This document shows, one piece after another, positions 6,527 to 36,395 of a stretch of 38,783 nt of DNA (the stretch's first letter is position 1; each line of letters begins with the position of its first letter). The stretch is from Deltaproteobacteria bacterium (GTDB lineage Bacteria; Myxococcota_A; Polyangia; Haliangiales; Haliangiaceae). The DNA lies in assembly GCA_005887925.1 (NCBI GenBank), contig VBLP01000288.1, forward strand, positions 1 through 38,783, written 5' to 3'. A program made the position numbers and the translations under genes. Under the pieces are notes generated by a model. That model saw nothing but the letters and a program-made list of their open reading frames with translations. It did not search any database and was not told where the DNA came from.

Positions 6527-7247
6527 ATGATCGCACTCGCCGTCAACGAGCTCGTCTCCAACCTCGGCCCCGACCGCGGGCCGTCCGTCGTCGCCCGCAT
6601 GATCGGCATCACCAAGATCTACGGCAGCGGCGAGAACGCCGTCACCGCGCTGTCGGGGGCCAGCCTCGACGTGTTCCCCGGCGAGGTCATGCTGATCGAG
6701 GGCCCGTCGGGCTCGGGCAAGACCACGCTGATCTCGATCCTGGGCCTCCTGCTCACGGCGACCGCCGGCGAGGTCTGGCTCGAAGGCAAGAACGTCGCCG
6801 GCCTGGGCGAGCGCGAGCTGCCCGGGCTGCGCGCCCGCAACTTCGGCTTCGTGTTCCAGGGCTTCAACCTGTTCCCGGCGCTGACCGCGGTCGAGAACGT
6901 CGCGATCGCGATCCGGATGAAGAACCCGCGGGCCAGGAACGCCGACGCCGAGGCGCGCCGCCTGCTCGAGCAGGTCGGCCTCGGGCCGCGCATGCATCAC
7001 CTGCCCGCCGATCTGTCGGGGCGACCCGCCGATCCTCGTCGGCGACGAGCCGACCGCCGCGCTCGACACCCGGACCGCGCTGTCGGTGATGGAGCTCCTG
7101 CGCGAGCTCGCGACCCGCCAGCGCCGCGCCGTCGTCGTCGTCACCCACGATCCGCGCCTCGAGCGCTTCGCCGACCGCGTCGTCCGCGTCGAGGACGGCC
7201 TGATCCAGGCCATCACCACCAGCGAGTCCCCCAGGAGCCCGTCATGA
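6527..7247 (+). pseudogene. ABC exporter ATPase, internal deletion and frameshift at about 7018-7022
   Basis: The first 164 or so codons are a normal ABC ATPase: Walker A GPSGSGKTT, Q-loop FVFQGFNLFPALTAVENV, then LPADLSG. At that point the frame changes. The continuation in another frame starts at 7023 and is also normal: DPPILVGDEPTAALDTRT (Walker B and D-loop), VVVVTHDPRL (H-loop), ending at TGA 7245-7247. What is missing is the rest of the signature motif and the following helix (normally LSGGQxQRVAIARAL), about 14 residues; the frame change implies a loss of about 41 bases. Without the signature motif the enzyme could not hydrolyse ATP. The gap also places the ATPase start in frame with the adaptor gene, giving a long spurious fusion frame (6527-8092). 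Either a real lesion or an assembly error. Confidence 0.85.
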
Positions 7248-8207
7248 CCAAGCTACGCTACCTCGCCCTCGCCCTCCCGCTCGCCGTCGCCGGCTGGTGG
7301 TGGTCCGGCCGGTCCACGCCGGCGGTCCACGCCGACACGCAGGTCGCGCGGCCGAGCGTGCTGATCGCACCCGGCCGGGTCGAGCCGGTCCGCGATCCGG
7401 TCCGGCTCGCGTTCGAGGCCCAGGGCCGGATCGCCGAGATCCTCGTCGACGAAGGCGACACCGTTCACGCCGGCCAGGTGCTCGCGCGGCTCGACGATCG
7501 GCTCCCCGCCGCGCGCGTCGCCGCCGCCGAGGCCGGCCTCGCGCAGGCCAGGGCGCGCCTCGCGTTCGCCCGCCGCGGCCCGCGTGCCGAGGACCTGGCT
7601 GCCGCTCGCGCCGACGCCGATGCCGCCGCCGCCGCCGCCCGCCATCGCGGCGCCGAGCAGGCGCGCAGCGAGCACCTGGGCAAGGTCGGCGCGCTCGCCA
7701 CCACCGTGGTCGATGCCGACGACGCCGCGGCCCGGGTCGCCACCGCGCAGGCCACCGCCGCCAGCGCCCGCTACCAGTCGCTCGCCCGCGGCACGCGCAG
7801 CGAGCAGGTCGACGAGGCCGCCGCCGCCGTCGCGCTGGCGCAGGCCGAGCTCGACGCGGCGCGGGTCGCGCTCGATCAGACCGTGCTCCGCGCACCGAGC
7901 GACGGCGTGATCCTCCGGCGCACCGGCGAGGTCGGCGCGCTGGTCACGCTGATGGCCCCCGCGCCGGTCGTGTCGATGGCCGACCTCGGCCAGCTCGAGC
8001 TGCGCGCCGAGATCAGCCTACGGCGACCGCCGCTTCCCGGTCGTGCTCGGCCGCCTGACCCGCGAGCTCGGCCGCAAGACCGCGCGCGATGACGATCCGC
8101 GCGCCCGCGTCGACACCCGCGTGCTCGAGGTGATCGCCCGGTTCGACGGCGCGCCCGGCATCGCCCTGCCGCTCGGCCTGCGCATGCAGCTCCACGTCAC
8201 CAAGTGA
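7244..8207 (+). pseudogene. HlyD-family adaptor of the ABC exporter, frameshifted at about 8017-8020
   Basis: The start ATG overlaps the ATPase stop (ATGA at 7244-7247). The N-terminus has a membrane anchor (YLALALPLAVAGWWWSG), a first biotinyl-lipoyl half (APGRVEPVRDPVRLAFEAQG...), an alanine/arginine-rich coiled-coil hairpin (about residues 90-200) and a second lipoyl half (LRAPSDGVILRRTGEVG), as in DevB/HlyD adaptors. After LRAEIS the frame is lost and would stop at 8092. The true C-terminus continues in another frame from 8019 (YGDRRFPVVLGRLTREL ... VDTRVLEVIARFDG ... LRMQLHVTK) to TGA 8205-8207. In relatives about 15-20 residues (xxDVxxVxVGQxA-type) lie between these parts, so a short segment is missing as well as the frame. 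Confidence 0.82.
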
Positions 8208-8221
8208 TCGCTGGCTGACAG

Positions 8222-9184
8222 CTAGCGGCGCTGCCGGCCGCTGCCATCGGACAGCTTGCGGGTCGCCTCGCGGGATCGCGTGAGGAACGCCTCGGCCGAG
8301 ACGCTCATCGTCTCGGCGAGGAGACGAAACTCACGCAGCCGGCCCGAAGAGGTCCGCCACGCCAGTCCGATCGTGCGGCCGGGCACCGGCTTGGCGAACT
8401 CGGCGAGCGCGACCGGCCCATGCTTCTGCACCAGCGAGGCGATCGCGGCCTCGGGCAGCAGCGTCACGCCGAGCCCGCCGGCCACCATCTGGACCAGCGT
8501 GGGCAGGCTGGTCGCGCGGACCTCGACCGACTCGACCGCTCCGGCGCGCTTGCAGATCTCGAGCGCCTGGTCGCGCAGGCAGTGGCCGTCCTCGAGCAGG
8601 AGCACCGTCTGGTCGTCGAGGTCCTTCTCGGTGAGCTTGCCGCGCTGCTTGACCAGCGGCGCGCCGCGCGGCGCCGCCGCCACGAAGCCCTCGCGTGCTA
8701 CCGGCGCCGTCGTGAAATCGCCCTGCACCGGGATCGCCAGCAGCGCGATCTCGAGCTGGCCGGCCGCCAGCTGTATCAGCAGCCGCGAGGTCTGGTCCTC
8801 ACGCAGGATCAGCTCGAGCTTGGGAAACCGCCGGTGGACCTCCGGGAGCAAGGCCGGCAGCCAGTACGGCGCGATCGTGGGAATGACTCCGAGGCGGAGT
8901 GCTCCGACCAGCGGCTCGCTGCGGCGCCGCGCCGCGTCACCGACCGCATCTACCGCAATCAGCGCCTCACGCGCGCGGCTGACCACGTCCTCCCCCGCCG
9001 GCGTGATCAGCACGCTGCGCCGATCGCGCTCGAATACCTGGATACCCAGCACGTGCTCCGCCGCCTGGACCTGCGCCGATAACGCGGGCTGGGAGATCCC
9101 GAGCGTGGTGGCAGCACGCCGGAAGCTCCGGCTGTCGGCCACGGCGACCAGACTTTCGAGCTGGCGGATCGAGGGGCGCTCCAT
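8222..9184 (-). CDS. oxyR: OxyR-type LysR-family peroxide sensor
   Basis: 320 residues. The N-terminal winged helix-turn-helix (RQLESLVAVADSRSFRRAATTLGISQPALSAQ) is followed by a LysR effector domain. The redox loop LLLEDGHCLRDQALEICKR has C202 and C211, the same spacing of nine as C199/C208 of the E. coli protein, which form the peroxide-induced disulfide. That spacing and the DGHCLRDQ signature separate OxyR from other LysR proteins. Upstream, touching the start codon, is a full four-part OxyR site (9186-9222), which predicts autoregulation and control of the divergent ahp genes. No Shine-Dalgarno sequence is visible before the ATG. The gene faces the broken adaptor gene with 14 bases between the stops. 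Confidence 0.93.
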   Translation of the reverse strand: MERPSIRQLESLVAVADSRSFRRAATTLGISQPALSAQVQAAEHVLGIQVFERDRRSVLITPAGEDVVSRAREALIAVDAVGDAARRRSEPLVGALRLGVIPTIAPYWLPALLPEVHRRFPKLELILREDQTSRLLIQLAAGQLEIALLAIPVQGDFTTAPVAREGFVAAAPRGAPLVKQRGKLTEKDLDDQTVLLLEDGHCLRDQALEICKRAGAVESVEVRATSLPTLVQMVAGGLGVTLLPEAAIASLVQKHGPVALAEFAKPVPGRTIGLAWRTSSGRLREFRLLAETMSVSAEAFLTRSREATRKLSDGSGRQRR

Positions 9185-9185
9185 G

Positions 9186-9222
9186 ATAGGGCAAAGCTAT
9201 CAGATGAATAAAATTACTTGAT
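9186..9222. promoter_or_regulatory. OxyR operator
   Basis: The site reads ATAG (9186-9189), 7 bases, CTAT (9197-9200), 7 bases, ATAA (9208-9211), 7 bases, TGAT (9219-9222). This matches the known OxyR tetramer motif ATAG-N7-CTAT-N7-ATAG-N7-CTAT with a perfect first half, a near match in the second and exact 7-base spacing throughout. It lies between oxyR and the ahp genes, one base from the oxyR start, so the bound tetramer could repress oxyR and activate ahp transcription when oxidised. Confidence 0.87.
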
Positions 9223-9269
9223 TGGACTTTATCAGGAATGTCCGGGCATTGTGACGCTAGAGGCCTGTC

Positions 9270-9379
9270 ATGTTCACCGTCCGAGCCCTGTTCTCGCGTT
9301 TCAGGCCAAGCCCGTCGTTGGTCTCGCACCTGGCGCTCGGCTCGTCGAGCTTAGCCACCGCGGCGTCGAACGCAAGTGG
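9270..9379 (+). pseudogene. ahpC: Remnant of ahpC (peroxiredoxin) N-terminus
   Basis: ATG 9270 begins MFTV, the usual AhpC start. After one frame change the next frame reads [24 protein letters not shown] and ends ERKW, which resembles the first 35 residues of AhpC (for example LPAFxLKAVVSLxPGKxFxEI ... GKW). The peroxidatic-cysteine block that should follow (FFWPxDFTFVCPTE) and the rest of the protein are absent; 9380-9485 shows no recognisable coding sequence. Position supports the call: the remnant sits directly after the OxyR operator and before ahpD, where ahpC is found in oxyR-ahpC-ahpD loci. The identification rests on about 30 residues read by eye, so it is good but not certain. Confidence 0.62.
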
Positions 9380-9485
9380 CCGAGCCGCGCAAGCGGAACC
9401 AAACTCCCGTCGCGTTCGTTCACCTGGCACCAGATCGAGCGCCTCGCCGAGTTACCGGATGTTCCCTGCCGCGTAAGGAGCTCTC

Positions 9486-10025
9486 ATGTCGATCGACCGC
9501 CTCAAGGACCGGCTTCCCGATCACGCTCGGGACCTGCGCATCAATCTCGGCGCGATCACGAGCTCGACGACGCTCAAGCCGCAGCAGGCATGGGGGACTG
9601 CACTCGCCGCCGCCGTCGCATCGCGCAACGCCGAGGTCGTCGCCGCGATCGCCGCCGATGCCACGTTATCGCCCGAGGCCGCTGCCGCCGCCCGCGGCGC
9701 CGCCTCGATCATGGGGATGAACAACATCTATTACCGGTTCCAGCACATGATGGGCGACGCGTCCGCCTATGCAGATCTCCCCGCGCGACTGCGGATGCAG
9801 ATCATCGGGCGGCCCGGCGTCGACGGCGTCGATTTCGAGCTGTGGTGCCTCGCGGCGTCGGTGATCACCGGCTGCGAGAACTGCGTACGCAACCACGAGA
9901 ACACCGTGCGCGAGCGCGGCGGCACCGCCGAGCAGGTCCAGGACTGCGTCCGCATCGCCGCGGTGATCCACGCCGTCGCGCTCACCCTCGACAGCACTCC
10001 CGTGCTCCCGAGCAACCCAGGGTAG
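9486..10025 (+). CDS. ahpD: Alkylhydroperoxidase AhpD
   Basis: 179 residues, the usual length of AhpD. The carboxymuconolactone-decarboxylase fold carries the full catalytic set: E118, C130 and C133 in a CENC motif, and H137, at the same numbers as the mycobacterial enzyme. In that system AhpD takes electrons from a lipoyl protein and reduces AhpC; it also has weak peroxidase activity of its own. The region around [13 protein letters not shown] is typical. Start ATG 9486 has GGAG seven bases upstream. Its partner ahpC appears destroyed immediately upstream, so this AhpD would need another AhpC in the genome or act alone. A glutathione S-transferase gene follows three bases after the stop, suggesting one oxidative-stress operon under the OxyR site. 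Confidence 0.93.
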
Positions 10026-10028
10026 ACC

Positions 10029-10712
10029 GTGAACGAACCCAGCCTGTTCGGTGCCTGCTACGGCGTCCATGTCCGGATCGTCCGGCTCGCCCTCGCCGAG
10101 AAGGGCGTCGCCTACCGCCTCATCGAGCTCGACCTTGCAGCCCCCGATCCGCGCGACCTCGCCGGGCAGTGCTTCGGGCGCATCCCGGAGTTCGAGCACG
10201 ACGGGTTCCGGCTCCACGACACCGGCGCGATCACGCGCTACATCGACGAGGCGTTCACCGGCCCCGCGCTGCAGCCGTCGAGCCCGCGCGGCCGCGCCCG
10301 CATGCACCAGATCATCTCGCTGCTCGACAACTACGCGTACCAGAGTCTGATCTGGGACATCTTCGTCGAGCGCGTGCGCGCCGCCTTCGAGTGCCGCAGG
10401 CCCGACGAGGCGCGGATCGCGGCCGCCGTGCCGCTGGCCGAGACCTGCCTCGACCAGATCGTCGGGCTCATGGCCGATGGCCCCTACCTCGCCGGCGATC
10501 GCCTCAGCCTGGCCGATCTCCACGCCGCGCCGATCATGATCTACGCCCACATGTCCGTCGAGGGCGCCGCGCTGATGCACGCGCGGCCCGCGCTCGAGGC
10601 CTGGCTCGGCCGGATGGGCCGGCGCTCCAGCATCGGCGACACCCGCACGCCGCTCGAGCGCCTGGCCTGGCAGCCCGCCCCCGCGCCGATCCCGACGCGC
10701 CCCGTCGCCTGA
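10029..10712 (+). CDS. Glutathione S-transferase family protein
   Basis: 227 residues, GTG start three bases after the ahpD stop. The N-terminal thioredoxin-like domain (1-80) has the GST pattern: [23 protein letters not shown]..., a cis-proline site near [10 protein letters not shown] and the glutathione-binding [13 protein letters not shown] motif. The C-terminal helical domain (90-205) has the N-capping box pattern [16 protein letters not shown] cytosolic enzyme is expected; it would conjugate glutathione to electrophiles or reduce peroxides, in keeping with the neighbouring oxyR and ahpD genes. The exact subclass and substrate cannot be told. The last 20 residues are a proline-rich tail ([11 protein letters not shown]) not usual in the family. 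Confidence 0.88.
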
Positions 10713-10786
10713 CCGCATCGCCGGCGCTCGAGGGTCCATCCGGCCGCGACCGTGACGAGCACCGCGCTGCATGCTTCAATGCCGGC

Positions 10787-11677
10787 ATGGCAGCCACGAC
10801 CGTCCTCGCGCGCGCGTCGCTGTCCGTCGTCGACTATCGCTGCACCGCCCAGCGCGGCGACCCCGGCTTCGTCGAGATCCACTCCGCCCACTCGATCGCC
10901 TACGTCCGCGCCGGCAGCTTCGGCTACCGCGTCGGCAGCCGGTCGTACGAGCTCGTCGCCGGCTCGGTGCTCGTCGGCCGCCCCGGCACCGAGTACCGCT
11001 GCACCCATGATCATGCCCACGGCGACCGCTGCCTGTCGTTCCAGCCCGGTCCCGCGCTGATCGACGCGATCGGTCCGCGCTCGCCGCTCTGGGAGCGCGG
11101 CTGCATCCCGCCGGTCCCCGAGCTCATGGTCCTGGGCGAGCTCGGCCAGGCCGCGCTCGACGGCCGGAGCGACGTCGGCCTCGACGAGGTCGGCCTCTGG
11201 ATCACCGCGCGATTCACCGAGCTCGCCGCCGGCCACACCACCAGCTCCGGCTCGTCGGCCTCGCGCTCGACACCCGGGTCGCTCGGCTCGCCTCGCATCG
11301 CCGCGCGCGATCGCGGCCGCGCCGTGCAGGTCGCGCTGTGGATCGACGAGCACGCCCACGAGCCGATCGACCTCGAGGCCGCCGCGCAGCAGGCCGGCCT
11401 CAGCGAGTTTCACTTCCTCCGCCTGTTCACCGCCGTCCTCGGCGTCACCCCCAAGCAGTACCTGATCCGCGCGCGGCTGCGGCGCGCCGCCCGCCTGCTC
11501 GCCGAGGACAACCGGCCGATCACCGACATCGCGTTCGACGTCGGCTTCGGCGATCTGTCCAACTTCGTCCGCACCTTCCACCGCGCCGCCGGCGTCTCGC
11601 CGCGTCGGTTCCGCCAGGCCTCGCGCGGCGATCGCAAGATCCTCCAGGATCGTCTGACCCGCGGGCTCGCCGGCTGA
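10787..11677 (+). CDS. AraC-family transcriptional regulator
   Basis: 296 residues from ATG 10787. The N-terminal part (1-130) looks like a cupin-type sensing domain with a HDHAHGDR cluster of histidines that could bind a metal. A serine/glycine-rich linker ([13 protein letters not shown]) leads to two helix-turn-helix motifs: [36 protein letters not shown] and [32 protein letters not shown]. This order is typical of AraC/XylS proteins. The very end ([10 protein letters not shown]) is encoded by DNA that recurs almost exactly 63 bp downstream, between this gene and the glyoxalase gene, so the coding sequence may contain an operator. It likely controls the VOC gene and the hypothetical gene after it. 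The inducer is unknown. Confidence 0.9.
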
Positions 11678-11715
11678 TCGGCCGCGCCCGGCGATCGCAA
11701 GATTCTCCAAGATCG
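11627..11715 (+). repeat. 26-bp direct repeat pair, 63 bp apart (candidate AraC operator)
   Basis: Copy 1 is at 11627-11652, inside the 3' end of the AraC gene; copy 2 is at 11690-11715, in the spacer before the VOC gene. They share GGCGATCGCAAGAT and differ at only two of 26 positions. The start-to-start distance of 63 bp is six helical turns, so both copies face the same side of the DNA, as expected for AraC-type half-sites. Copy 2 ends about 40 bases before the VOC start codon. Confidence 0.55.
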
Positions 11716-11757
11716 GCCCGCCCGCGATTCGTACGTTGGCTCCACAAGGAGATCACC

Positions 11758-12120
11758 ATGTACGACCACATCGGACTGCACGTCAAAGACCTCGCCGCCG
11801 CCATCAAGTTCTACCAGGCCGCCCTCGCACCATTCGGCTACGAGCTGTGCTCGCGAGACGAGACCAGCGCCGGCCTCGGCCGCCCGAACGAGCCCGCGCT
11901 CTGGCTCTACGCCTCGAACACGGCCAGCACCGCCCACGTCGCGTTCCGCGCCGCCGATCGCGCCACCGTCGATCGCTTCCACCAGCGCGGCGCCGCGGCC
12001 GGCGGCCGCGACAACGGCAAGCCCGGCCTGCGCGCCGACTACGCCCCGACCTACTACGCCGCGTTCCTCGTCGACCCCGACGGCAACAACGTCGAGGCCG
12101 TCTGCATGGAGCCGCGATGA
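11758..12120 (+). CDS. VOC-superfamily (glyoxalase-fold) protein
   Basis: 120 residues, the size of a single VOC module. It starts MYDHIGLHVKDLAAAIKFYQAAL, with the usual metal-site histidine at residue 4, and ends FLVDPDGNNVEAVC with the usual acidic ligand. Proteins of this kind form dimers and act on small molecules as glyoxalases, dioxygenases or resistance binders; nothing here shows which. ATG 11758 has a strong AAGGAG six bases upstream. The gene follows an AraC regulator and the repeat pair, and its stop overlaps the start of the next gene (ATGA), so regulator, VOC protein and hypothetical protein probably form a small inducible unit. Confidence 0.88.
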   Translation: MYDHIGLHVKDLAAAIKFYQAALAPFGYELCSRDETSAGLGRPNEPALWLYASNTASTAHVAFRAADRATVDRFHQRGAAAGGRDNGKPGLRADYAPTYYAAFLVDPDGNNVEAVCMEPR

Positions 12121-12638
12121 CGCTCGCGCTGCCCACCGCCCTGGTCAGCGCCGACCGCTCCCCGAACATCTCCGAAGCGTCCGATCTCTACGGCTTCCTC
12201 GTCGGCAGCTGGCACCTCGAGGTCCGCAGCTACGCCGGCGTCGACGTCACCGGCCGCAACCTCCGCGGCGAGGTCCACGCCGCCCGCGTGCTCGAGGGTC
12301 GCGGCATCCAGGACACATGGATCATGCCGCCCCGCGGCAGCCGGACCGGCCTCGACCCGACGCAGAACATGTACGGCACGACGCTGCGCCTCTGGGACTC
12401 GTCGATCCAGGCCTGGCGGATCGCCTGGTCCAACCCCGCGAGCAACCATTACGAGCAGCAGATCGGTCGCGCACACGGCAAGGACATCGTCCAGCTCGGC
12501 GTGCGCCCCAACGGCACCACGACGCGCTGGATGTTCGTCGAGATCACGCCGCGGTCGTTCCACTGGCTCGGCGACGCTCTCGGCCCCGACGGTGCGACCT
12601 GGCTCCGCGAAGCGGAGTTCCTCGCAACCCGCGCGTAG
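12117..12638 (+). CDS. Hypothetical protein, DUF1579-like beta-barrel
   Basis: 173 residues, start overlapping the VOC stop. There is no signal peptide and no membrane helix. The body has the pattern FLVGSWHLEVRSY near residue 30, then LRLWDSSIQAWRIAWSNP and RSFHWLGDAL, which suggests a small lipocalin-like or DUF1579-type barrel whose conserved GxW motif opens the first strand. I cannot name a reaction. Tight coupling to the VOC gene suggests both handle the same small molecule and are switched on by the AraC regulator upstream. Confidence 0.72.
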   Translation: MTLALPTALVSADRSPNISEASDLYGFLVGSWHLEVRSYAGVDVTGRNLRGEVHAARVLEGRGIQDTWIMPPRGSRTGLDPTQNMYGTTLRLWDSSIQAWRIAWSNPASNHYEQQIGRAHGKDIVQLGVRPNGTTTRWMFVEITPRSFHWLGDALGPDGATWLREAEFLATRA

Positions 12639-12652
12639 TGTTCCATCCGCGC

Positions 12653-12674
12653 ACACGTACTATCGTGTACCGTG
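12653..12674 (+). promoter_or_regulatory. Inverted repeat over the start of the antitoxin gene
   Basis: ACACG (12653-12657) and CGTGT (12664-12668) flank TACTAT, which resembles a -10 box. The GTG start codon is at 12672, so transcription would begin at or next to the start codon. Antitoxin promoters usually carry such a dyad for autoregulation by the antitoxin. No good -35 box is seen. Confidence 0.45.
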
Positions 12675-12944
12675 GCAAAGCAGAAGGTCACGCTGACCCT
12701 CGATGTGGCGAGCTTGCAGCAGCTACGTGCCCTGGTAGGAGCGCGCCGTCTGTCCGCGAGCGTCGACGAAGCGATCGCGGCGTACGTACAACACCAGCGT
12801 CACCTCGGCGCCGTCGACGAATGGCTCGCCGAGCTCGATCGCGCGCATGGCCCCGTTCCCGTAGAAACCCTCGAATGGGCTGCCAGGCTCGTCGATCAGT
12901 GGGCCACGTCGAAGAGCGGCCGCCGTCGCAAACGAGCCAGCTGA
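12672..12944 (+). CDS. Antitoxin-like ribbon-helix-helix protein
   Basis: 90 residues. The N-terminus KVTLTLDVASLQQLRALVG ... LSASVDEAIAAYVQ fits a ribbon-helix-helix (CopG/Arc-like) DNA-binding fold of the antitoxin kind often paired with PIN-domain (VapC) toxins. The second half (VDEWLAELDRAHGPVPVETLEWAARLVDQW) is the usual toxin-binding helical tail, ending in a basic stretch. The start is GTG, overlapping the dyad just described. The stop TGA overlaps an ATG (TGATG at 12942-12946), the usual coupling to a toxin gene, but no toxin follows: the next frame holds only MLLLE before entering the duplicated segment. The gene is therefore probably an orphan left after loss of its toxin. Confidence 0.7.
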   Translation: MAKQKVTLTLDVASLQQLRALVGARRLSASVDEAIAAYVQHQRHLGAVDEWLAELDRAHGPVPVETLEWAARLVDQWATSKSGRRRKRAS

Positions 12945-13125
12945 TGCTGTTGCTGGAATCGTCGCTGCCGTCCGAGCTGCGCACCCACGTGGGCGCGATG
13001 ATGGCGCTCGCCGCCGACCACGCACCGCCCGCCGCGCTTTCGCGGAATCGTCACCGCTGCCGTCCGAGCTGCGCGCCCACGTGGGCGCGATGATGGCGCT
13101 CACCGCCGACCGCGCGGAAGAATAG
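12944..13125 (+). pseudogene. Truncated frame in the toxin position, made of a duplicated coding fragment
   Basis: From the ATG coupled to the antitoxin a 49-codon frame runs to 13093. It starts MLLLE and then reads SSLPSELRTHVGAMMALAAD. The same peptide, with small changes (SSPLPSELRAHVGAMMALTAD), is encoded again at 13045-13110 in another frame and ends RAEE and TAG at 13123-13125. The two copies differ by a whole codon and by changes that keep the frame, so the segment was once coding on this strand, probably the C-terminus of a gene. I recognise no family. A PIN-type toxin would be expected here and is not present. Confidence 0.45.
12956..13110 (+). repeat. Duplicated 63/66-bp segment
   Basis: Copy 1 is 12956-13018 and copy 2 is 13045-13110, 89 bp apart. 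Beyond a 3-base insertion (ACC) in copy 2 they differ at very few positions (for example A/G at 12973-type codon sites ACC/GCC and GCC/ACC). The copies lie between the antitoxin and a truncated methylase gene. The right edge of copy 2 coincides to within a few bases with the point where homology to the methylase is lost (13114). Confidence 0.75.
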
Positions 13126-13272
13126 GGCGGCGCCACCGGCGAACGGCTCGTAGTAGCGCGCGAAGTGCTCGGGCATGTGGGCGACGAGCTCAGGCAGGAG
13201 CCCTGTCTTGCCGCCGGCGGCCTTGATCATGGGGGCTGCGTGCTGCGACACGGGAGGTGCTGCGGCGATCAT
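13114..13272 (-). pseudogene. Dam-type (D12 class) adenine methylase, N-terminal fragment
   Basis: Reading from ATG 13272 (or ATG 13230), the frame gives MIKAAGGKTGLLPELVAHM then RYYEPFAGGAALFFR. This is the start of a D12-class N6-adenine methyltransferase: the KAAGGK strand and the FxGGxAxFF S-adenosylmethionine-binding motif I. Homology stops after residue 53, and the frame then runs through the reverse of the duplicated segment and ends at 13051. The target-recognition domain and the DPPY catalytic motif are absent, so no activity is possible. The gene was cut at the edge of the repeat, which points to a recombination or deletion event. Confidence 0.72.
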
Positions 13273-13559
13273 AGCGCCCCTTCCGATCCCCGATCAGGTC
13301 CGGCTGTTTCTCAGCCTCCCGCCGTCCCCCAAGCCGCGCTCGGCGCCCGAGGGGCGGGCGCGGCGACAAGGTACAATGCTCCCCGGATAACGCAGGGAGT
13401 GGAGTGGACCTCGGGAACACTCATTGATTGGCGAGGCCTGCCTCACCGTGGATCGCAGTCCAGACACAGGAATGGCCAGCATCACGGACAAGAGCCTGGT
13501 GAACCTTGCGTCTGCGCTCGCCTCGACGAAGTCCGGAGTGAAAGCTGCAGCGAAAGACG
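13273..13559. other. Non-coding stretch with a GC hairpin
   Basis: No frame here has convincing coding character and base composition is less skewed than in the flanking genes. It contains a perfect 7-bp hairpin GCGCCCG-AGGGG-CGGGCGC at 13343-13361 without a T run, and an isolated TACAAT at 13372-13377 that would suit a -10 box but lacks a -35. The hairpin could end transcription of the oxidase operon, which stops at 13560 on the minus strand. Confidence 0.4.
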
Positions 13560-14522
13560 CTACTCGGCCGCGCCGCGCACGGTGCGGACGACCCAGGCGA
13601 TGGCGGCGGCGCCGACCGCGAGGGTGACGACGAACACCGGCAGGCCGCCGGAGCCGACGGCGGTGGCGCGGCCGTGCTCGATCAGCGCGAGCCGCGGCGC
13701 CTCGCGAACCACCGCGCCGGCGAGCAGCGCCGCGGTCGTGGCGGCGGTGGTCACGGAAAGGCCCGGACCGTCGGGGCGGTGGGCGGTCCAGCCCCAGCCG
13801 AGCGCGGCGGCGATCGCAGCGATGCCGAGCAGGTAGGTCCAGCCGTGCGCGGGGTCGAAGTCGCGGCGGATCGCGAGCGCGATCGCGGAGGTCGCGCCGC
13901 AGATGATCAGCCCGGTGAGGGCCAGGGCGGCGAGCCGACGGCGCTCGGCGGCGGAGGCCGGCCACGCAGCGACGGTCGCGAACAGCGCGAGCATCGCGCC
14001 GGCCCAGATCGCGAGCCGCGGCAGGACGGCGGCATCGAGGTGGAAGCGCTCGCCGGCGGCGTACATCGCGCGCCAGCCCGCGTCGTCGAGCATCACCTGG
14101 TGGAGCTCGGTCCACGACCACGCGACGAAGCCGAAGCACGCGGCGCCGGCGCCGAGCGCGAGCCGCCGGCGATGCTCGGACGCCTTGGCGAGATAGAGCG
14201 CGTAGAAGCCGAGGATCAGCGCGGGCACGACGGCGCCCCAGCGCGGCCCCATCAAGAGGTTCGCGGTGTAGAACCGGCGCTGGTAGAGCAGCTGGAGGAA
14301 CAGCAGCGGCCCGATGCCCGCGGTGATGCCGGCGCCGAGCAGGAACGGCAGCCAGTCGCGGGTGCGCTCGGCGATCGGATCGGCGCTCCGGCGCAGCGCG
14401 GCGACGAGCGCGTAGACCGTGCCGGCGGCGACGTAGCTCACCAGCACGGCGTGGAGCGCGAAGCTGACCAGGTAGAGCGCGAGCCACAGCGACTCGGTCG
14501 AGGCGTCGAACGGCCACATCAT
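13560..14522 (-). CDS. Membrane subunit of a bd-like oxidase (second subunit)
   Basis: 320 residues with about eight or nine membrane helices and no signal peptide. The first helix carries H24 (LVSFALHAVLVSY), a possible haem or quinone-site residue. Further segments such as AGIGPLLFLQLLYQRRFYTANLL and SWTELHQVMLDDAGW with histidine and acidic residues near helix ends also suit an oxidase subunit. The start overlaps the stop of the upstream CydA-like/cytochrome-c gene (ATGA at 14519-14522), so the two proteins are made together and probably form one complex. It is not a typical CydB by sequence. The call comes mainly from the operon partner; the exact role (proton path, structural or haem-binding) is unknown. 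Confidence 0.65.
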   Translation of the reverse strand: MMWPFDASTESLWLALYLVSFALHAVLVSYVAAGTVYALVAALRRSADPIAERTRDWLPFLLGAGITAGIGPLLFLQLLYQRRFYTANLLMGPRWGAVVPALILGFYALYLAKASEHRRRLALGAGAACFGFVAWSWTELHQVMLDDAGWRAMYAAGERFHLDAAVLPRLAIWAGAMLALFATVAAWPASAAERRRLAALALTGLIICGATSAIALAIRRDFDPAHGWTYLLGIAAIAAALGWGWTAHRPDGPGLSVTTAATTAALLAGAVVREAPRLALIEHGRATAVGSGGLPVFVVTLAVGAAAIAWVVRTVRGAAE

Positions 14523-15919: not shown

Positions 15920-16014
15920 GATGCTTCGATGCTACAGCGGCCCGTCCGACAGCGGGTATTTCACGCGATCGGGTGCGTCGAAATGCCACCGCGAGCGTAG
16001 TACAACCGTCCGCC

Positions 16015-17013: not shown

Positions 17014-17054
17014 GCGACATATCCGAGCGCCGAGCTGCGAGCCGCCCGCGTCCC

Positions 17055-17066
17055 ACCGCCGGCGGT
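17055..17066. terminator. Perfect palindrome between convergent genes
   Basis: ACCGCCGGCGGT is a gap-free 12-bp palindrome in the 61-base spacer between the ends of the ZntB-like gene and the hydrolase gene. It could be a shared factor-independent stop structure, but there is no T run on either side, so the call is weak. Confidence 0.3.
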
Positions 17067-17074
17067 CCGCCCAT

Positions 17075-18037: not shown

Positions 18038-18177
18038 GGCCGGACCATCGCACGGAACACGCCGGGATGTTTTCTGGCGCGCTCCGCTGTCCTCCGTGAT
18101 TCTTGCGACCCGGCCATGGTCAGGAAGAAGGAGAAGCGCCCAGCGCCCACACCGCAGAGAGGAACAGCTCGTGCGCC

Positions 18178-18594: not shown

Positions 18595-18597
18595 GGC

Positions 18598-18939: not shown

Positions 18940-19001
18940 CACCCCACTGTACGTAACATATAAGTCACGCACAGGCAAGCGCCGAGCCGCCGCCGGGCCT
19001 G

Positions 19002-24877: not shown

Positions 24878-24973
24878 GTCGGGGCGAGAATACCCAGCCC
24901 CGCGCACGCGGCGACCGCAGGTCCCCCTCATCTATCTCGTCCACCTGTACGCCGGTGGGAGTATGGTGTGCAA

Positions 24974-27004: not shown

Positions 27005-27153
27005 TCGGGAACTGCCGGGTTCCCGATCCCGCGACCGATCCGGCGCCGGCGCCGACGACGAGATCGCGCCCGACCCCGCGCTCGCATGGCGCGAATGGGG
27101 TAGTGTGGTGTCGTCCGTCTGCCTGCGTGTGTAGACTCGAAACGGAGGACTCC

Positions 27154-28437: not shown

Positions 28438-28451
28438 ACGGCGTCATGCGC

Positions 28452-28468
28452 CGGCGGCGAGCCCGCCG
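28452..28468 (+). terminator. GC hairpin after the binding-protein gene
   Basis: CGGCGG (28452-28457) pairs with CCGCCG (28463-28468) around a 5-base loop, 15 bases after the stop codon. There is no T run, so a factor-independent terminator is only possible, not clear. The 123-base spacer to the EamA gene otherwise shows nothing. Confidence 0.3.
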
Positions 28469-28560
28469 CGCGAGATCCGGCACGAGCACACGTCGGGCCG
28501 GAATCCGGCGATCAGCGGCAGGCGGTCGTCGGAGGGGCGGCGGTCCACTATGCTGGGTCG

Positions 28561-29445
28561 GTGGTGGAACCGCGCGCAGTCGTGCCTGGGAGCGCCGCGC
28601 GCGAGCATCGCGAGGCGCTGGTGCTGCTGGCGCTGTGCGGTCTTCTGTGGAGCGCGGCCGGCCTCTTGATCAAGCTGGTCGACTGGAACGCCCCGGCGAT
28701 CTGGTCGGCGCGCAGCGCGATCTGCGCGGCTGCGATCTGTGCGGTGCGCCGGCCGTCGTTCGCGCGGATCTCGGCGGCGGAGTGGCGCGCGGCGGTTGCG
28801 CTGGCCGCGACCACCGGGCTGTTCATCCTCGCCAACAAGCTCACGACCGCGGCCAACGCGATCCTGATCCAGTACTCGGCACCGGTCTGGGTCGCGCTGC
28901 TGGGCTCGTGGCTGCTCGGCGAGCGGGCCCGCCGGATCGACTGGTTGACGATCGCGCTGGTGCTGGTCGGGATCACGCTGTTCTTCTTCCATCAGCTGAC
29001 GTTCGATCATGTCGCCGGCAACCTGGTGGCGCTGGTCAGCGGCATCGTCACGGCGCTGTACACGCTGTCGATCCGCAAGGTCGCGATGACCGGCGGCGCC
29101 GCGGCCACCGATCCGCTGCGCCCGATCTTGCTCGGTAACCTGATCGCGACGGTGGTCGGCGCTCCGTTCCTGCTCGCGTCGCCGCCGCCGGGCGTCGCCG
29201 GATGGACCACGCTCGCTGCGCTCGGCATCTTCCAGCAAGCGCTGCCCTACGTGCTCTATGCGCGCGCGATCCGCCGCGCCTCCGCGCTCGAGGCGATCCT
29301 GATCCCGGTGATCGAGCCGATCCTGTCGCCGGTCTGGGTCGCGCTCGGCGTCGGCGAGCTACCGGGCGGCTGGGCGCTCCTCGGCGGCGCGATCGTCGTC
29401 ACCGCGGTCACGGCGCGCGCCGTGATCGGTCGCCGACGTCACTGA
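28561..29445 (+). CDS. EamA/DMT-family permease
   Basis: 294 residues with ten membrane helices in two EamA repeats of five: the first includes ALVLLALCGLLWSAAGLLIKL, the second NLIATVVGAPFLL and later AILIPVIEPILSPVWVALGVGE, the conserved loop of this family. The start is GTG 28561; a second GTG follows immediately. Members export or take up amino acids, nucleosides or other metabolites through the inner membrane. The binding-protein gene before it is not in the same operon by spacing (123 bases). Function beyond drug/metabolite transporter cannot be given. Confidence 0.9.
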   Translation: MVEPRAVVPGSAAREHREALVLLALCGLLWSAAGLLIKLVDWNAPAIWSARSAICAAAICAVRRPSFARISAAEWRAAVALAATTGLFILANKLTTAANAILIQYSAPVWVALLGSWLLGERARRIDWLTIALVLVGITLFFFHQLTFDHVAGNLVALVSGIVTALYTLSIRKVAMTGGAAATDPLRPILLGNLIATVVGAPFLLASPPPGVAGWTTLAALGIFQQALPYVLYARAIRRASALEAILIPVIEPILSPVWVALGVGELPGGWALLGGAIVVTAVTARAVIGRRRH

Positions 29446-29671
29446 GATCGAGGACCAGGCGCGACGTCCGCGGCTCACCGAGCGCCGGTGCGAAGATCGA
29501 GGATGAGCCGTGCGCGATCGCACCGGAAACGGAGCAATGCCGGCGAGATGTGATGCGCCCGGCACCGCGCGCCTGCATTGCACGGCGGTGATGACGTGGC
29601 GCGGCATGATGATCACCTCGATCTGGAATGGGCCGTGACGAGCCAGGTACGCTGGCGCCAGGAGAAGTCGG
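29446..29671. other. Spacer before the propeller receptor gene
   Basis: 226 bases without a frame of coding character. A GATCGAGGA motif occurs twice near the left end (about 29446 and 29496) and the DNA near 29650-29671 includes the ribosome site of the next gene. No promoter could be fixed. Confidence 0.4.
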
Positions 29672-32197
29672 ATGCGAACGTGGCCCGTCAGTATCGCCAT
29701 CGCCGTCCAGCTCGGTGCAGCGCACACCGCCGATGCACTGGATGGCCATCGCAACGTCGCGCAGTACGCGCAGACGCACTTCGCCGCGCGCGACGGCATG
29801 CCGCACGGCTACGCCGGCGCGATCGCGCAGACCGCGGACGGTTATCTGTGGAGCGCCAGCCAGGAGGGGTTGTCGCGGTTCGACGGCACGGGGTTCACCA
29901 CGTTCGACCACCGCAACACCGAGGGCGTGCCGGCCAACGTGTTCACGGCGCTCGCGGTCGACGCCGCCGGGACGCTGTGGGCCGGGACCTACGACCACGG
30001 CGTCCTGCACCTGGTCGGCGGCGAGTTCCGCGCGGTGGCGTGGGAGCCGGGGCCGCAGGAGCAGCGGGTGCGCGCGCTGGCGTTCGACGGCAACGGCGAT
30101 CTGTGGATCGGGATGCGCGATCGCGGCGTGGTCAGGCTGCACGCCGGCGCGCTGGTCGGCGCGCTGACCACGCACGACCGGCTGCCCAGCGACGACGTCC
30201 GCACGTTCCTGCTCGCGCGCGACGGCACGATGTGGATCGGCACGTTCAAGGGGCTCGTGCGCTGGAGGGCGGGCCAGATCGCGCCGGGCCCGGCCGCGCT
30301 CGACGGCAGCACGATCCACGCGATCGCGCAGGACGCGCAGGGCGATCTGTGGTGCGCGACCGACAAGGGCGTCGCCCGCGTCCGCGGCGACACCGTCGAG
30401 CTCCGCGACGGCAGCCGGCTGCCGGCCGGCGATGCCCACAGCGTGCTGTTCGATCGCGACGGCAACCTGTGGATCGGCACCAGCGCCGGGGTCGCGCGGA
30501 TGACGCCGGACGGAGAGATCCAGCGGCTGCCGCAGCCCGGGGTGCTGATCCTGGCGCTGTTCGAGGACAGCGAGGGCAACCTGTGGGTCGGCAGCAAGAA
30601 GGGGCTCGACCGGCTGCGCGACGGCGACGTGATCCCGGTCGGTGCCACCGAGGGATTGACCGACGAGGCCGCCGAGGGCGTGCGCGAGGATGTCACCGGC
30701 GCGATGTGGATCACCACGTCGGACGGGCTGTTCGTGATCCCGCCCGGACAGACGGCGGCGACCAAGGTCGTCGGCGACCGCGGCATCATGTACGCGATCT
30801 ATCCCGACTCGCACGGCGACGTGTGGTTCGGCGGGCGCGATGGCGACATCGGCCGCTGGCACGCCGGCCGGTTCACCTGGCTCGGCCACCAGCGCTGGGA
30901 GCGCATCCGGTCGTTCGCCGAGATCGGCGACGAGCTGTGGATCGGCAACGATCACGGTCTGTACCGGCTGCGAGGCCAGCGCCTCGACGATGCCGAGGCG
31001 ATCGTGTCGGGCGTCGCGGTCGGCCAGATCGTGCCCGACGCGGCCGGCTCGCTGTGGCTGGCGACCGCCGGCGGTGGCCTGATGCACTGGCGCGACGGCT
31101 CGCTGGTGCCGGTTCCGCCGGGCGGCCCGCCGCGCAACACGCCGGTCGACACGATCCTGCTCGATCCCGACGGCACGATGTGGGTGGGGACCGGCGGCAG
31201 CGGGCTGTGGCGGCTGCGCGACGGCCGCTGGTTCGCGTTCACGACGCGCGACGGGATGTTCGACGACCTGATGTGGACCGTCCTCGACGACAGGCGCGGC
31301 AACCTGTGGATGTCGTCGAACCGCGGGATCTGGCGCGTGAGCCGCGAGCAGCTCGAGGCCCGTGCCGCGGGCCGGCGCGCCGCGATCGACTCGGTGGTCT
31401 ACGGCGAGGCCGATGGCATGCGCGATCGCGAGTGCAACGGCGCGAACGACCCGGCGGGCTGGCGGGCCCACGACGGCCGGCTGTGGTTCCCCACCGGCAA
31501 GGGCGCCGTCGTCATCGATCCGGCGCACCTCCACACGACCCGGCCGCCGAACGCGGTGCTCGAGACCGCGCGGGTCGACGGCCAGCCGCAGCACCTGTCG
31601 GCGCGGCTCGCGCTGGCGCCCGGCGCCGGCCGCCTCGAGATCGGCTACACGGCGCCCACGCCACGCGGGCTGCAGCGGCTGCACTACCGCTACCGGCTCG
31701 AGGGCTTCGATCACGACTGGAACGACGCCGGCATGCAGCGCATCGCGCAGTACACCAACCTCGCGCCCGGCGAGTACCGCTTCGTCGTCGAGGCCGGGCT
31801 CGACGGCGCGTGGGGCCACGCCGCCACGCTGGAGGTGACCTTGCCGCCGCTGTTCTACCAGACCGGCTGGTTCATCGCGCTGGCGGCGCTGTCGATCGCG
31901 CTGGCGATCGTGGCGGTGCCGCTGGTCCGCGTGCGCCAGCTCCGGCTCCGCGCCCGCGAGCTCGACCGGCGGGTCCAGGAGGCGGTCAGCGAGCTCAAGG
32001 TGCTGTCGGGCATGCTGCCGATCTGCGCGTGGTGCAAGAAGATCCGCGACGATCGGGGCTACTGGAGCAAGATCGAGGCGTATCTCAGCGCGCGCACCGA
32101 CGCCCAGTTCACGCACGGCATCTGCCCCGAGTGCACCGACAAGATGCTCTCCGACGACCCGACCAGCCGCAACACGCCGCCGGTGTCTCCCGCGTGA
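29672..32197 (+). CDS. Two-component propeller receptor ending in a four-cysteine domain
   Basis: 841 residues from ATG 29672 with GGAGAAG upstream. A signal peptide is followed by about twelve beta-propeller blades of the Reg_prop type (repeats of the form D.xGxLWxGTxxGxxR: DGYLWSASQEGLSRF, TLWAGTYDHGVLHL, DLWIGMRDRGVVRL and so on), then a Y_Y_Y-type domain (YRYRLEGFDHDWNDA ... YTNLAPGEYRFVVEA) and one membrane helix (about 730-750). Normally a histidine kinase or DNA-binding domain follows. Here there is a short coiled coil, then a small domain with two CxxC pairs, C785/C788 and C818/C821 (ICAWCKKIRDD ... GYWSKIEAYL ... HGICPEC), known as a tail of various signalling proteins and likely a metal site. 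Signal and output unknown. Confidence 0.85.
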   Translation: MRTWPVSIAIAVQLGAAHTADALDGHRNVAQYAQTHFAARDGMPHGYAGAIAQTADGYLWSASQEGLSRFDGTGFTTFDHRNTEGVPANVFTALAVDAAGTLWAGTYDHGVLHLVGGEFRAVAWEPGPQEQRVRALAFDGNGDLWIGMRDRGVVRLHAGALVGALTTHDRLPSDDVRTFLLARDGTMWIGTFKGLVRWRAGQIAPGPAALDGSTIHAIAQDAQGDLWCATDKGVARVRGDTVELRDGSRLPAGDAHSVLFDRDGNLWIGTSAGVARMTPDGEIQRLPQPGVLILALFEDSEGNLWVGSKKGLDRLRDGDVIPVGATEGLTDEAAEGVREDVTGAMWITTSDGLFVIPPGQTAATKVVGDRGIMYAIYPDSHGDVWFGGRDGDIGRWHAGRFTWLGHQRWERIRSFAEIGDELWIGNDHGLYRLRGQRLDDAEAIVSGVAVGQIVPDAAGSLWLATAGGGLMHWRDGSLVPVPPGGPPRNTPVDTILLDPDGTMWVGTGGSGLWRLRDGRWFAFTTRDGMFDDLMWTVLDDRRGNLWMSSNRGIWRVSREQLEARAAGRRAAIDSVVYGEADGMRDRECNGANDPAGWRAHDGRLWFPTGKGAVVIDPAHLHTTRPPNAVLETARVDGQPQHLSARLALAPGAGRLEIGYTAPTPRGLQRLHYRYRLEGFDHDWNDAGMQRIAQYTNLAPGEYRFVVEAGLDGAWGHAATLEVTLPPLFYQTGWFIALAALSIALAIVAVPLVRVRQLRLRARELDRRVQEAVSELKVLSGMLPICAWCKKIRDDRGYWSKIEAYLSARTDAQFTHGICPECTDKMLSDDPTSRNTPPVSPA

Positions 32198-32246
32198 GCG
32201 CCGGCAGGCCTCAGCGCAGGATGTCGTGGAACGACGGGGATCGTCA

Positions 32247-32260
32247 GGACATTGATGTCC
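32247..32260. terminator. Palindrome between convergent genes
   Basis: GGACAT-TG-ATGTCC is a perfect 6-bp dyad with a 2-base centre, in the 63-base spacer between the propeller receptor and the serine hydrolase, touching the latter's stop codon. It may act as a shared stop structure or a protein site; no T run follows. Confidence 0.35.
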
Positions 32261-34117
32261 CTAGAAGCAGGGCGCCCAGGTCGACAGCGCGGACCGGATC
32301 GGCTCGCGCAGCGGCTCGGCCTTGGCGGCGTTGAACGTGTTGTTCGCCGCCGTGGCGCTGGTCGAACCGTCGATGAAGATGCCCCAGACGAAGCTGCGGC
32401 TGCCGACGAGGCCGCGCGTGCACTGCGGGATCTCGGCCGAGCCGGCCACGGAGCGGTACTCGAGGCACGGGCTCGACGGACACAGCGTGTAGCCGCCCGC
32501 CTTGTAGTGGGTCAGGAGCCGGCTCTTGAACTGGCTGATCTCGGTCGCGTTGAGGCCGAACGCGGGCGCCTCGGCGTCGACGATGGCGTTGACCGCGCTC
32601 TGGATGCCGGTGAAGTCACCGGCCTGGGCCGGCATCCGCGAGTACAGCTCCGGCCGGTTGGTCGACGACAGGAGCGTGCCGTTGGCGATGCCTTCGTAGA
32701 TCACGCCGGCGTCGGCGAGCGTCATCTGGTTGGCGGGTGGGCCGCCGCAGCCGGGGTAGTGGTTGAGGTGCGTGCCGGTCAGGCCGATGTTCTGGGCGGT
32801 CTGGTTGATCGCGGCGAAGCCGTAGGTGTCGATCATCGCCCTGGTGCGCTGGTTGTCCGAGCTCTCGAGCATCTGCAGGATCGCGTTGCCCATCGGCTCG
32901 GTGCCGGTGATCGTGCTGGTCGGGCAGCTGCCCGACGCGGGTGGCGCGTAGACCACGACGCTCTGGCCCAGGCTGGCGCCGGCGTCGACCTGCTCCATCG
33001 CGTGGAGGCCGATCAGGATCTTGATCGAGCTCGCCGGCTCGAAGATCCGGCTGTCCTGGAGGCTGGCCTGCACGCCGCCGCCGACCTGCTTGAGGTAGAG
33101 GCCGGTCTCGCCGTCGGTGCCGCTGCGCAGGATCTGGCCGACGCGCGTGGACGCGGCGTTCGAGTTGTTGACCATCACCGCGGCGAACCGGCGCGAGCCG
33201 TTGATGAAGTAGCTCTTGACGTCGAGCAGGCGCGCGCCGTTCTGCGACAGCCGATCGCCGAGGTCGGCCGCCGACAGCCCGTAGTACCACCACCAGTAGA
33301 TGCCCGGGTTCTGCTCCATGACGACGTTGAACGTCGAGCCGCCGGCGTCGGCCGGCTCGATGGAGATCAGGAACGCGTTGTTCTGCGACAGCAGGCTGCC
33401 GACCTGGCTGCCGGTGACGCCGTAGTACCACCACCACGCCATCGCATCGCCGCCGGTGTTGGGGATCATCACCACCGCGTAGCGGGTGACGCCGCCGGTG
33501 ACGTACGACCGGAAGTCGACCAGGCGTGCGTTGTTCTGCGACAGCAGCGTGGCGATCTGCGACGTCGTCACGCCGTAGTACCACCACCAGCCCTTGGCGT
33601 CGGCGCCGGTGTTGCTGATCAGCACCGCCGCGAAGTACGTGGTGCCGCCGACGTCGTAGGCGTCGAGGCTCACGATGCGCGCGTTGAGGCTGTTGATGTT
33701 GGCCGACAGCTGGCTCGCGGTCAGGCCGTAGTAGTACCACCAGCTCTTGGCGTAGCTGCCGGTGTTGCTGACCAGCGCGACCGTGAACAACAGCGGAGAG
33801 GCCTGCTCGACCTGGAGGCTGACGATGCGCCCGCCGGTGCTGCTGACGATCGACGACAGCTGCGCCGGGCTGATGCCGTAGTACCACCACCACGCGGTCG
33901 GCGTGGTGTTCAGCGTCTCCGCGAGCGCCGCCTGCTCGCGCTGTCCGAGCTCCTCGGGCTGTCCCGGCTCCTCGGGCTGTGTCAGATCGCCGCACGCGGC
34001 CAGCGCCACGGCGAGCGCGGCGAACGCCGCGACGAGCTTGCCGCCGCGGCGACGCCGCGCGGTGTCATGAGATGCACTGTCAAACATGATATCGCTGTCC
34101 TTTGTCTCGTAACTCAT
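32261..34117 (-). CDS. Serine hydrolase lipoprotein with five WWWYYG repeats
   Basis: 618 residues from ATG 34117, with AGGGAGAGG just upstream (an ATG at 34087, also with AAAGGA nearby, is possible). A lipoprotein signal (AALAVALAAC) is followed by five repeats of about 50 residues, each opening with a W-rich motif: AWWWYYGISPAQL, SWWYYYGLTASQL, GWWWYYGVTTSQI, AWWWYYGVTGSQV and YWWWYYGLSAADL, then a strand set ending in N-T/S-G. The rest (from about 330) is a class A beta-lactamase-like domain: SSIK, SSDNQ (SDN) and NQMTLADAGV, but the KTG-type motif is replaced (near RSFVWGIFIDG) and four cysteines cluster near the end. The repeats resemble the bacterial tandem repeat domain described with such hydrolases. 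Substrate unknown; cell-envelope peptide is plausible. Confidence 0.82.
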   Translation of the reverse strand: MSYETKDSDIMFDSASHDTARRRRGGKLVAAFAALAVALAACGDLTQPEEPGQPEELGQREQAALAETLNTTPTAWWWYYGISPAQLSSIVSSTGGRIVSLQVEQASPLLFTVALVSNTGSYAKSWWYYYGLTASQLSANINSLNARIVSLDAYDVGGTTYFAAVLISNTGADAKGWWWYYGVTTSQIATLLSQNNARLVDFRSYVTGGVTRYAVVMIPNTGGDAMAWWWYYGVTGSQVGSLLSQNNAFLISIEPADAGGSTFNVVMEQNPGIYWWWYYGLSAADLGDRLSQNGARLLDVKSYFINGSRRFAAVMVNNSNAASTRVGQILRSGTDGETGLYLKQVGGGVQASLQDSRIFEPASSIKILIGLHAMEQVDAGASLGQSVVVYAPPASGSCPTSTITGTEPMGNAILQMLESSDNQRTRAMIDTYGFAAINQTAQNIGLTGTHLNHYPGCGGPPANQMTLADAGVIYEGIANGTLLSSTNRPELYSRMPAQAGDFTGIQSAVNAIVDAEAPAFGLNATEISQFKSRLLTHYKAGGYTLCPSSPCLEYRSVAGSAEIPQCTRGLVGSRSFVWGIFIDGSTSATAANNTFNAAKAEPLREPIRSALSTWAPCF

Positions 34118-34196
34118 CTGCCCTCTCCCTTTTGCCCCCGGATAGAGTTCGACCTCGCTCGCCTGTTACAGACGATCGATCGCGCGTCGACGAGAC

Positions 34197-34217
34197 CGGT
34201 CGGACCACGACCGACCG
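34197..34217. promoter_or_regulatory. Inverted repeat between divergent hydrolase genes
   Basis: CGGTCGG (34197-34203) and CCGACCG (34211-34217) form a perfect 7-bp inverted repeat around 7 bases, in the 188-base spacer between the WWWYYG hydrolase and the penicillin-acylase gene. A dimeric regulator could bind there and control both genes. No -35/-10 pair was identified. Confidence 0.45.
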
Positions 34218-34305
34218 CGCGGCCGGTTCGCCGGGCGAGCCGCCCCGCTGGCGTTGCGCCGGGCGCGAGGCTACCGTGCGGCCACTCGCCACGAGGAGAT
34301 CCTAA

Positions 34306-36395
34306 ATGTTGAACAGGCTGCCGCTCGTCCTCCTGCTGTCGTGCGCGCCGATCGCGGCCGAGCGCGCATCCGGCCCCGATCCGACGCGGTGGGAGCGCCA
34401 GGCCCAGCGCGTCACGATCGTCCGCGACGACTGGGGCCACGCCCACATCCACGGCGCGACCGACGCCGACGCCGTGTTCGGCATGGTCTACGCGCAGGCC
34501 GAGGACGACTTCAACCGCGTCGAGACCAACCCGACGAGCTCAAGGCGCTGTACGCGGCGAGCCCGGCCGCGCTGCGCGCGCTGATGGACGCCTGGGCCGA
34601 CGGGCTCAACTACTACCTCGCGACCCACGCCGGCGTGAAGCCGCGCGTCATCGCGCGGTTCGAGCCGTGGATGGCGCTGTCGTTCACCGAGGGCAGCATC
34701 GGCGGCGACATCGAGCGCATCGACCTCGCCCAGCTCGCCGCGTTCTACGGCGACGAGGCGACGCGCCCCGCGCCGGTCGACGTCGGCGAGCAGCCCAAGG
34801 AGCCGTCGGGCTCGAACGGCATCGCGATCGCGCCCGCCAACACCGCCGATCACCACGCGCTGCTCCTGATCAACTCGCACACCTCGTTCTACTTCCGCTC
34901 CGAGCTGCAGATGACGAGCGACGAGGGCCTCGACGCCTACGGCGCGGTGACCTGGGGCCAGTTCTTCGTCTACCAGGGCTTCAACGACCGGATCGGCTGG
35001 ATGCACACCTCGACCGGCGCCGACGCCGTCGACGAGTACGCCGAGTCCATCGTGCGCAAGGCCGGCCGGCTGTACTACCGCTACGGCAAGGAGCTGCGCC
35101 CGGTGGTGACCGGCCGGATCCGCGTCCCGTACCGGACGGCGAGCGGGATGGCGAGCAAGGACGTCACGGTGCTGCGCACCCACCACGGCCCGATCGTCCG
35201 GTCGGCGGACGGCAAGTGGATCGCGATCCGGCTGATGCAGAAGCCGATCGAGGCGCTGCGCCAGTCCTACGAGCGCACCCGGGCGCGCGACCTCGCCGGC
35301 TTCCGCAAGGTGATGGAGCTCGCCGCCAACTCATCCAACAACACGCTCTACGCCGACGCCGACGGCCACATCGCCTACTTCCATCCCCAGTTCCTGCCGC
35401 GGCGCGACGACCGCTTCGACTGGACCCACCCGGTCAACGGCGCGGACCCGGCGACGGAGTGGAACGGCGTGCACGGTGTCGACGACAGCCCGCACGCCAT
35501 CGATCCGCCCAACGGCTGGGTGATGAACACCAACGACTGGCCGTACTCGTGCGCGGGGTCCAACAGCCCCCGGCGCGAGAGCTTCCCGCGCTACATGGAC
35601 ACGGTCGGCGAGAACCCGCGCGGCATCCACGCGATCCGCGTGCTCGACGGCCAGCACCAGTTCACGCTCACCGGCCTGCGCGACGCCGCGTTCGACAGCT
35701 ACCTCACCGCGTTCGCGGCGCTGATCCCGGCGCTGCTGGCGGCCTACGACGAGACCGCGGCGTCCGACACGGTCAAGGCCAGGCTGGCCGACCAGATCCG
35801 CGTGCTGCGCGACTGGGACTATCGCTGGTCGGCGAGCTCGGTGCCGACGTCGCTCGCGGTGTACTGGGGCCAGGAGCTGTGGCAGAAGTCCGCCGGCGCG
35901 GCCCGGCGCGCCGGCATGTCGGTCTGGGACTACATGGCGGCGCGCACGTCCCCGGCGCAGAAGCTGGCGGCACTCGCCGCGGCATCGGACCGGCTCACCC
36001 AGGACTTCGGGACCTGGCGCACGCCGTGGGGCGACATCAACCGCTTCCAGCGGCTGACCGCCGACATCGTGCAGCACTTCGACGACATGGCGCCGAGCAT
36101 CCCGGTGCCGTTCACCAGCGCGCAGTGGGGCTCGCTGGCGTCGTTCGGCGCGAAGGCCTACCCGGGGACGAAGCGGATGTACGGCACCAGCGGCAACAGC
36201 TTCGTCGCCGTCGTCGAGTTCGGTCCCAGGGTGCGGGCGCTGGCGGTGACGGCGGGCGGCGAGAGCGGCCACCCCGACTCGCCGCACTTCAACAGCGAAG
36301 CCGGCCGCTACGCCAGCGGCGACCTGCGCGAGGTCTACTTCTATCCCGCGCAGCTCGAGGGGCACACCGAGCGCGCCTACCACCCGGGGAAGTGA
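34306..36395 (+). pseudogene. Penicillin-acylase family gene, internal deletion and frameshift at about 34528-34531
   Basis: ATG 34306 has AGGAG eight bases upstream. The first part is a signal peptide (RLPLVLLLSCAPIAA) and the acylase start (QRVTIVRDDWGHAHIHGATDADAVFGMVYAQAEDDFNRVETN). The frame then breaks. From about 34531 another frame reads DELKALYAASPAALRALMDAWADGLNYYLATH and runs to 36395 with the whole rest of the enzyme, including the catalytic serine in PSGSNGIAIA (about 34812), the Ntn nucleophile created by self-cleavage, and HTSFYFRSELQM. Relatives have about 25-30 residues between ETN and DPDELK, so a block is missing as well as the frame. As it stands only a 75-residue fragment could be made. 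Substrate of the intact enzyme (penicillin, acyl-homoserine lactone or other acyl amide) cannot be told. Confidence 0.87.

Follow-up and report, generated by a model that had tools for sequence, protein, structure and literature searches.

In the window (the whole contig that was analysed, 38,783 nt), we found that the genes for an ABC transporter ATPase, an HlyD-type adaptor and a penicillin acylase are each interrupted at a junction where a block of coding sequence is missing and the reading frame changes. It is highly probable that the assembly of a fragmented draft produced all three (at 7018, 8015 and 34530) as artefacts, through under-estimated gaps and contig ends that were abutted without N. 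An earlier note on this DNA had described a repeated pattern of four genes broken by internal deletions; the observation is right for three of the four, and "four genes" understates the pattern, since it spans the genome. It is a quality warning, not biology.

Breaks in the window and the same loci in congeners

The window belongs to a genome assembly of 12.2 Mb in 778 contigs that is 81% complete, and we compared it with 15 draft genomes of congeners (4.8-9.8 Mb). Although it is only 81% complete, the genome is larger than each of the 15 congeners. To locate coding frames, we used a frame model that relies on codon usage and stops only and takes no homology input. With this model, frame switches were placed at 7018/7019, 8015/8016 and 34530/34531, and both halves of the genes retain coding signal at the breaks. 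The features concerned are collected in Table 1.

Table 1. Interrupted genes of the window, their junctions and the ahpC region, with the basis for each assignment.
Feature	Position	Strand	Basis
ABC transporter ATPase, first part	6527-7018	+	PF00005 profile 2-99 of 137; one coding frame to 7018
Junction, 41 nt missing vs congeners, frame change	7018-7019	+	41 nt in 9/9 congener loci
ABC transporter ATPase, last part, other frame	7019-7239	+	Frame model 7019-7224; congener alignment continues
HlyD-type adaptor, first part	7245-8015	+	Congener alignment; weak Pfam matches
Junction, 56 nt missing vs congeners, frame change	8015-8016	+	56 nt in 9/9 congener loci
HlyD-type adaptor, last part, other frame	8016-8208	+	Frame model 8016-8202; alignment
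LysR-type regulator, unbroken, adjoins ahpC remnant	8222-9184	-	PF00126, PF03466
ahpC remnant, diverged, much shortened	9269-9481	+	27-28 residues alignable; shortened interval
AhpD-like CMD-family gene, unbroken	9486-10025	+	PF02627
Penicillin acylase, first part	34306-34530	+	PF01804 profile 2-39 of 675
Junction, about 29 codons missing, frame change	34530-34531	+	Profile jump 39 to 75; frame switch
Penicillin acylase, last part, other frame	34531-36395	+	PF01804 profile 75-674 of 675

For the two export genes, the comparison with relatives that the earlier note had called for could be made directly. In an alignment of nine congener loci from nine genomes, the blocks of 41 nt and 56 nt are present in every locus and absent from the window, which bears out the gaps that had been read near 7018 and 8018; the second is now placed at 8015/8016. 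The medians of a sliding comparison, for which 16-17 partly overlapping loci were used, gave the same two sizes. Within the genes of 5380-8210, the nine-locus alignment revealed no further gap that changes the frame and is confined to the window, in line with the statement that the flanking coding sequence shows no further decay. The last part of the ATPase taken alone has no Pfam match, and the first part of the adaptor has weak matches to biotin-lipoyl/HlyD Pfam models, one of which alone is above its cut-off. Programmed frameshifting, in which the frame slips by 1-2 bases and nothing is missing, does not describe these two sites, where 41 nt and 56 nt are absent.

In the penicillin acylase, the gap that had been proposed near 34529 was likewise found. 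Because the PF01804 match stops at profile position 39 and restarts at 75, about 29 codons are lost by this measure; a DNA-level search of the 15 congeners returned no long match to the gene. Just upstream of the acylase and divergent from it lies a gene for a protein of the beta-lactamase family (PF13354) that carries a BTRD1 repeat (32261-34117, minus strand).

Breaks across the genome, essential genes and N-runs

To quantify how often coding frames break in this genome as compared to its congeners, we counted as a break any switch of coding frame at least 40 nt ahead of the old frame's stop. Genome contigs were picked blind by spaced contig number, with at most 20 kb taken from each, in two sets of 20, and congener pieces were sampled likewise by spaced contig number; three of the 40 congener pieces were mostly N and were dropped, leaving 37. 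With one model shared by all pieces, we found 46 breaks in the 40 genome pieces (468 kb) as compared to 4 in the 37 congener pieces (436 kb; p = 3e-10), and with a stricter cut of 90 nt there were 37 breaks in the genome and 3 in the congeners. When each genome was given its own model, the counts were 46 breaks in 507 kb, window included, and 6 in 567 kb of seven congeners. By the same test, then, this genome has more broken genes than its close relatives. The window has 3 breaks in 38.8 kb under the shared model, one of which is retained at the 90 nt cut, and this density is not unusual within its genome. Nine of 12 congener pieces selected by homology to the window (L012, L016 and L020 were left out) had 3 breaks in 161 kb under the shared model, and an earlier count (101 kb set) gave four breaks in two further congener pieces.

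We next consider which genes are hit. The adk locus lacks 71 nt without any N and continues in another frame beyond the loss, and its neighbour leuS is split at an N-run of 61 nt (N61). The infB locus lacks about 29 nt and the carA locus 34 nt, both with no N, and one EF-G gene is about 91 nt short; on C286, a second EF-G-like gene runs without a break across the stretch matched in congeners. For all five of the broken genes, both halves match the same NCBIfam model. A gene of the aminoacyl-tRNA-synthetase family on C203 also shows a frame switch, with congener matches too distant for sizing. In a search of the whole assembly, the rpoC model TIGR02386 had no match. Breaks thus fall on essential genes (adk, leuS, infB, carA) and are not confined to dispensable ones, as they would be in genuine decay.

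The earlier note had offered a recent burst of deletions as one possible cause, which would here be a real, genome-wide burst of short deletions that broke about one gene in ten. A burst of this kind would agree with the clean losses and the coding signal retained in their flanks, with the apparent decay of ahpC, and with a genome size, 12.2 Mb, that is unmatched in its genus. However, a cell cannot live without adk, infB and leuS, and because they are broken here a real burst is very unlikely. The same sample of 40 genome pieces also contains 21 N-runs of 6-208 nt, whereas the 37 congener pieces contain none, which also speaks against a burst. In addition, 15 of the 16 N-free losses that could be sized, and both sized losses of the window, were either absent from every congener compared or measured in few, and no sized loss is below 28 nt; natural indels, unlike these losses, include sizes under 28 nt.

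Scaffold N-runs occur in the same assembly as the breaks, and some of them at breaks: 7 of the 46 breaks (per-genome models) lie within 150 nt of an N-run. Situated inside genes and 6-208 nt long, these runs appear unlike the whole-contig N of the dropped congener pieces. Two N-runs, too few to fix the bias of gap estimates, were sized against congeners; N61 in leuS hides 132 nt (+71) by one congener genome, and a run of 132 nt (N132) in piece L055 hides 182-205 nt (+50 or +73) by two subjects. The N-runs of piece L218 gave no usable sizes.

Sizes of the losses and their origin

Sixteen N-free losses were sized; tblastx values were noise at this GC and were discarded in favour of those from blastn. 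The smaller eight measure 28, 29, 30, 32, 34, 41, 45 and 47 nt and the larger eight 56, 65, 67, 69, 71, 85, 91 and 124 nt. The sizes of 29, 67, 69 and 71 nt each come from one congener genome, and those of 29 and 91 nt were derived from protein-match coordinates. Some sizes vary with the comparison. For the 28-nt site, blastn returned 28, 34 and 46; multiple alignment put the 30-nt site at 27, and one subject put the 124-nt site at 103 nt. Most of the 46 breaks are unsized, being without a homologue that spans both sides. Three of the 16 losses are in frame (30, 45 and 69 nt) in a set of sites mostly picked for frame breaks. The smallest of the 16 is 28 nt, and an unsized break in L202, near 873, resembles a slip of some 2 nt. 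In L055, sizes near 7753 were inconsistent, and a site near 2924, where two subjects gave 49 nt and -44 and multiple alignment showed no such gap, was left out of the 16.

We propose that the breaks arose as follows. Lapses in assembly would leave two contig ends tens of bases apart, and scaffolding would then set these ends side by side with the gap size under-estimated, the arithmetic of the scaffolder being our inference. Larger gaps would retain a shortened N-run, while for gaps estimated at zero or below the ends would simply be joined and no N inserted. The product would resemble a clean deletion, and the frame would change if its length were not a multiple of three. The systematic assembly artefact that the earlier note had listed among its possible causes is strongly supported, because breaks occur genome-wide, N-runs are present here and absent in the congener samples, and losses fall in essential genes and at in-frame sites. 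Several observations count against this explanation, among them the apparent slip in L202 and the inconsistent sizes near 7753 in L055. Some N-free losses (85, 91 and 124 nt) are larger than the under-estimate of 71-73 nt seen at N-runs, and the missing blocks, unremarkable in GC and mixed in folding, give no hint of why the assembly lapsed. A constant under-estimate of 71 nt (N61 at +71, adk at 71 nt) was considered and dropped in view of these larger losses and of N132 at +73 or +50. Because the losses do not share a constant of 71 nt, we describe the gaps as short by tens of bases only.

The sequence of the missing blocks bears on another cause that had been put forward, a mechanism that removes short GC-rich segments, which we considered as a cellular mechanism that excises GC-rich or hairpin-forming segments. 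In the window, the two blocks known from congeners are mildly GC-rich, with GC at the 71st and 67th percentile, and in folding stability they rank above 78% and 89% of control windows, which speaks for such a mechanism. In contrast, when 13 sized sites were examined, the blocks as present in congeners had a mean GC z of 0.16 as compared to random congener DNA, with folding percentiles from 0.07 to 0.94 (the window site at 7018 was left out of this test, its alignment having picked another gap). The missing blocks thus do not exceed random congener DNA in GC and fold in no consistent way; excision of this kind is unsupported and extremely improbable.

Errors at the level of the reads, for example amplification that skips a segment, would place the deletion in the reads and not in the genome, and they would likewise be genome-wide and blind to gene function. 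They leave the N-runs and the under-sized gaps unexplained, however, and inspection of alignments by eye revealed no long repeats at the junctions, so that we regard such errors as very improbable. Another reading, which we consider extremely improbable, is that deletions of 30-120 nt are truly in excess throughout the genome, that intact copies in the same cells or population make them tolerable, and that the assembly shows the deleted form.

The preferred reading, under-estimated gaps closed without N, has partial precedents. Spurious pseudogenes made by assembly have been described (Cooley and Wright 2024, PMC11017572), and in the part of that paper that bears on our case a raised count of frame-broken genes tracks assembly quality and not biology, as it does here. 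In that part the paper deals with frameshifts and internal stops generally, whereas our sized losses are blocks of 28-124 nt that occur alongside N-runs. Scaffolds with negative gaps have also been described (English et al. 2012, PMC3504050; a further source is PMC5368935). The portion of English et al. concerned with such gaps describes adjacent contigs that paired-read distance places as overlapping although their sequences do not overlap, which resembles the situation here; it differs in that the usual repair given there is end trimming, in eukaryote drafts, while in the present case sequence is missing at the joins of a bacterial draft.

Taken together, these data indicate that gene loss should not be inferred here; this sequence is no basis for declaring the acylase or the export genes dead. 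N-free joins can be recognised from sequence alone, by frame-break rates as compared to congeners combined with a check of essential genes.

The ahpC remnant and the site near 13114

The fourth gene, ahpC, had been grouped with the other three as a conserved gene with a clean gap, and this grouping was mistaken: what is present is a short, diverged remnant. Only 27-28 residues (9296-9379) can be aligned, at 37-39% identity to the three best of seven congener AhpC proteins, and the alignable frame differs from that of the ATG at 9269. In the two congener genomes measured, the interval from oxyR to ahpD is 318-336 nt longer than here, and the frame model called 9186-9482 non-coding. The claim of no further decay fails for ahpC because this region looks like real decay. 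The ahpC remnant combines divergence with loss, and like a genuine pseudogene it is diverged, its frame has slipped and most of the gene is gone; at the other breaks, in contrast, the aligned sequence outside the junction is free of decay, and these breaks reach essential genes. On this evidence, the ahpC remnant is probably a true pseudogene, separate from the other breaks.

A position near 13114 had also been listed for checking. It is the edge of a 36-residue match to the N-terminus of a D12-class adenine DNA methylase (PF02086 profile 2-38 of 253), which ends at about 13114, and not a similarly interrupted gene. The methylase match adjoins a 61-nt direct repeat of 95% identity, and the site (13066-13230, minus strand, and 12963-13115) may be a remnant of a mobile element or another bad join. 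At 12672-12944 on the plus strand, a predicted protein of 90 residues has a weak match to the CcdA antitoxin, below the Pfam cut-off.
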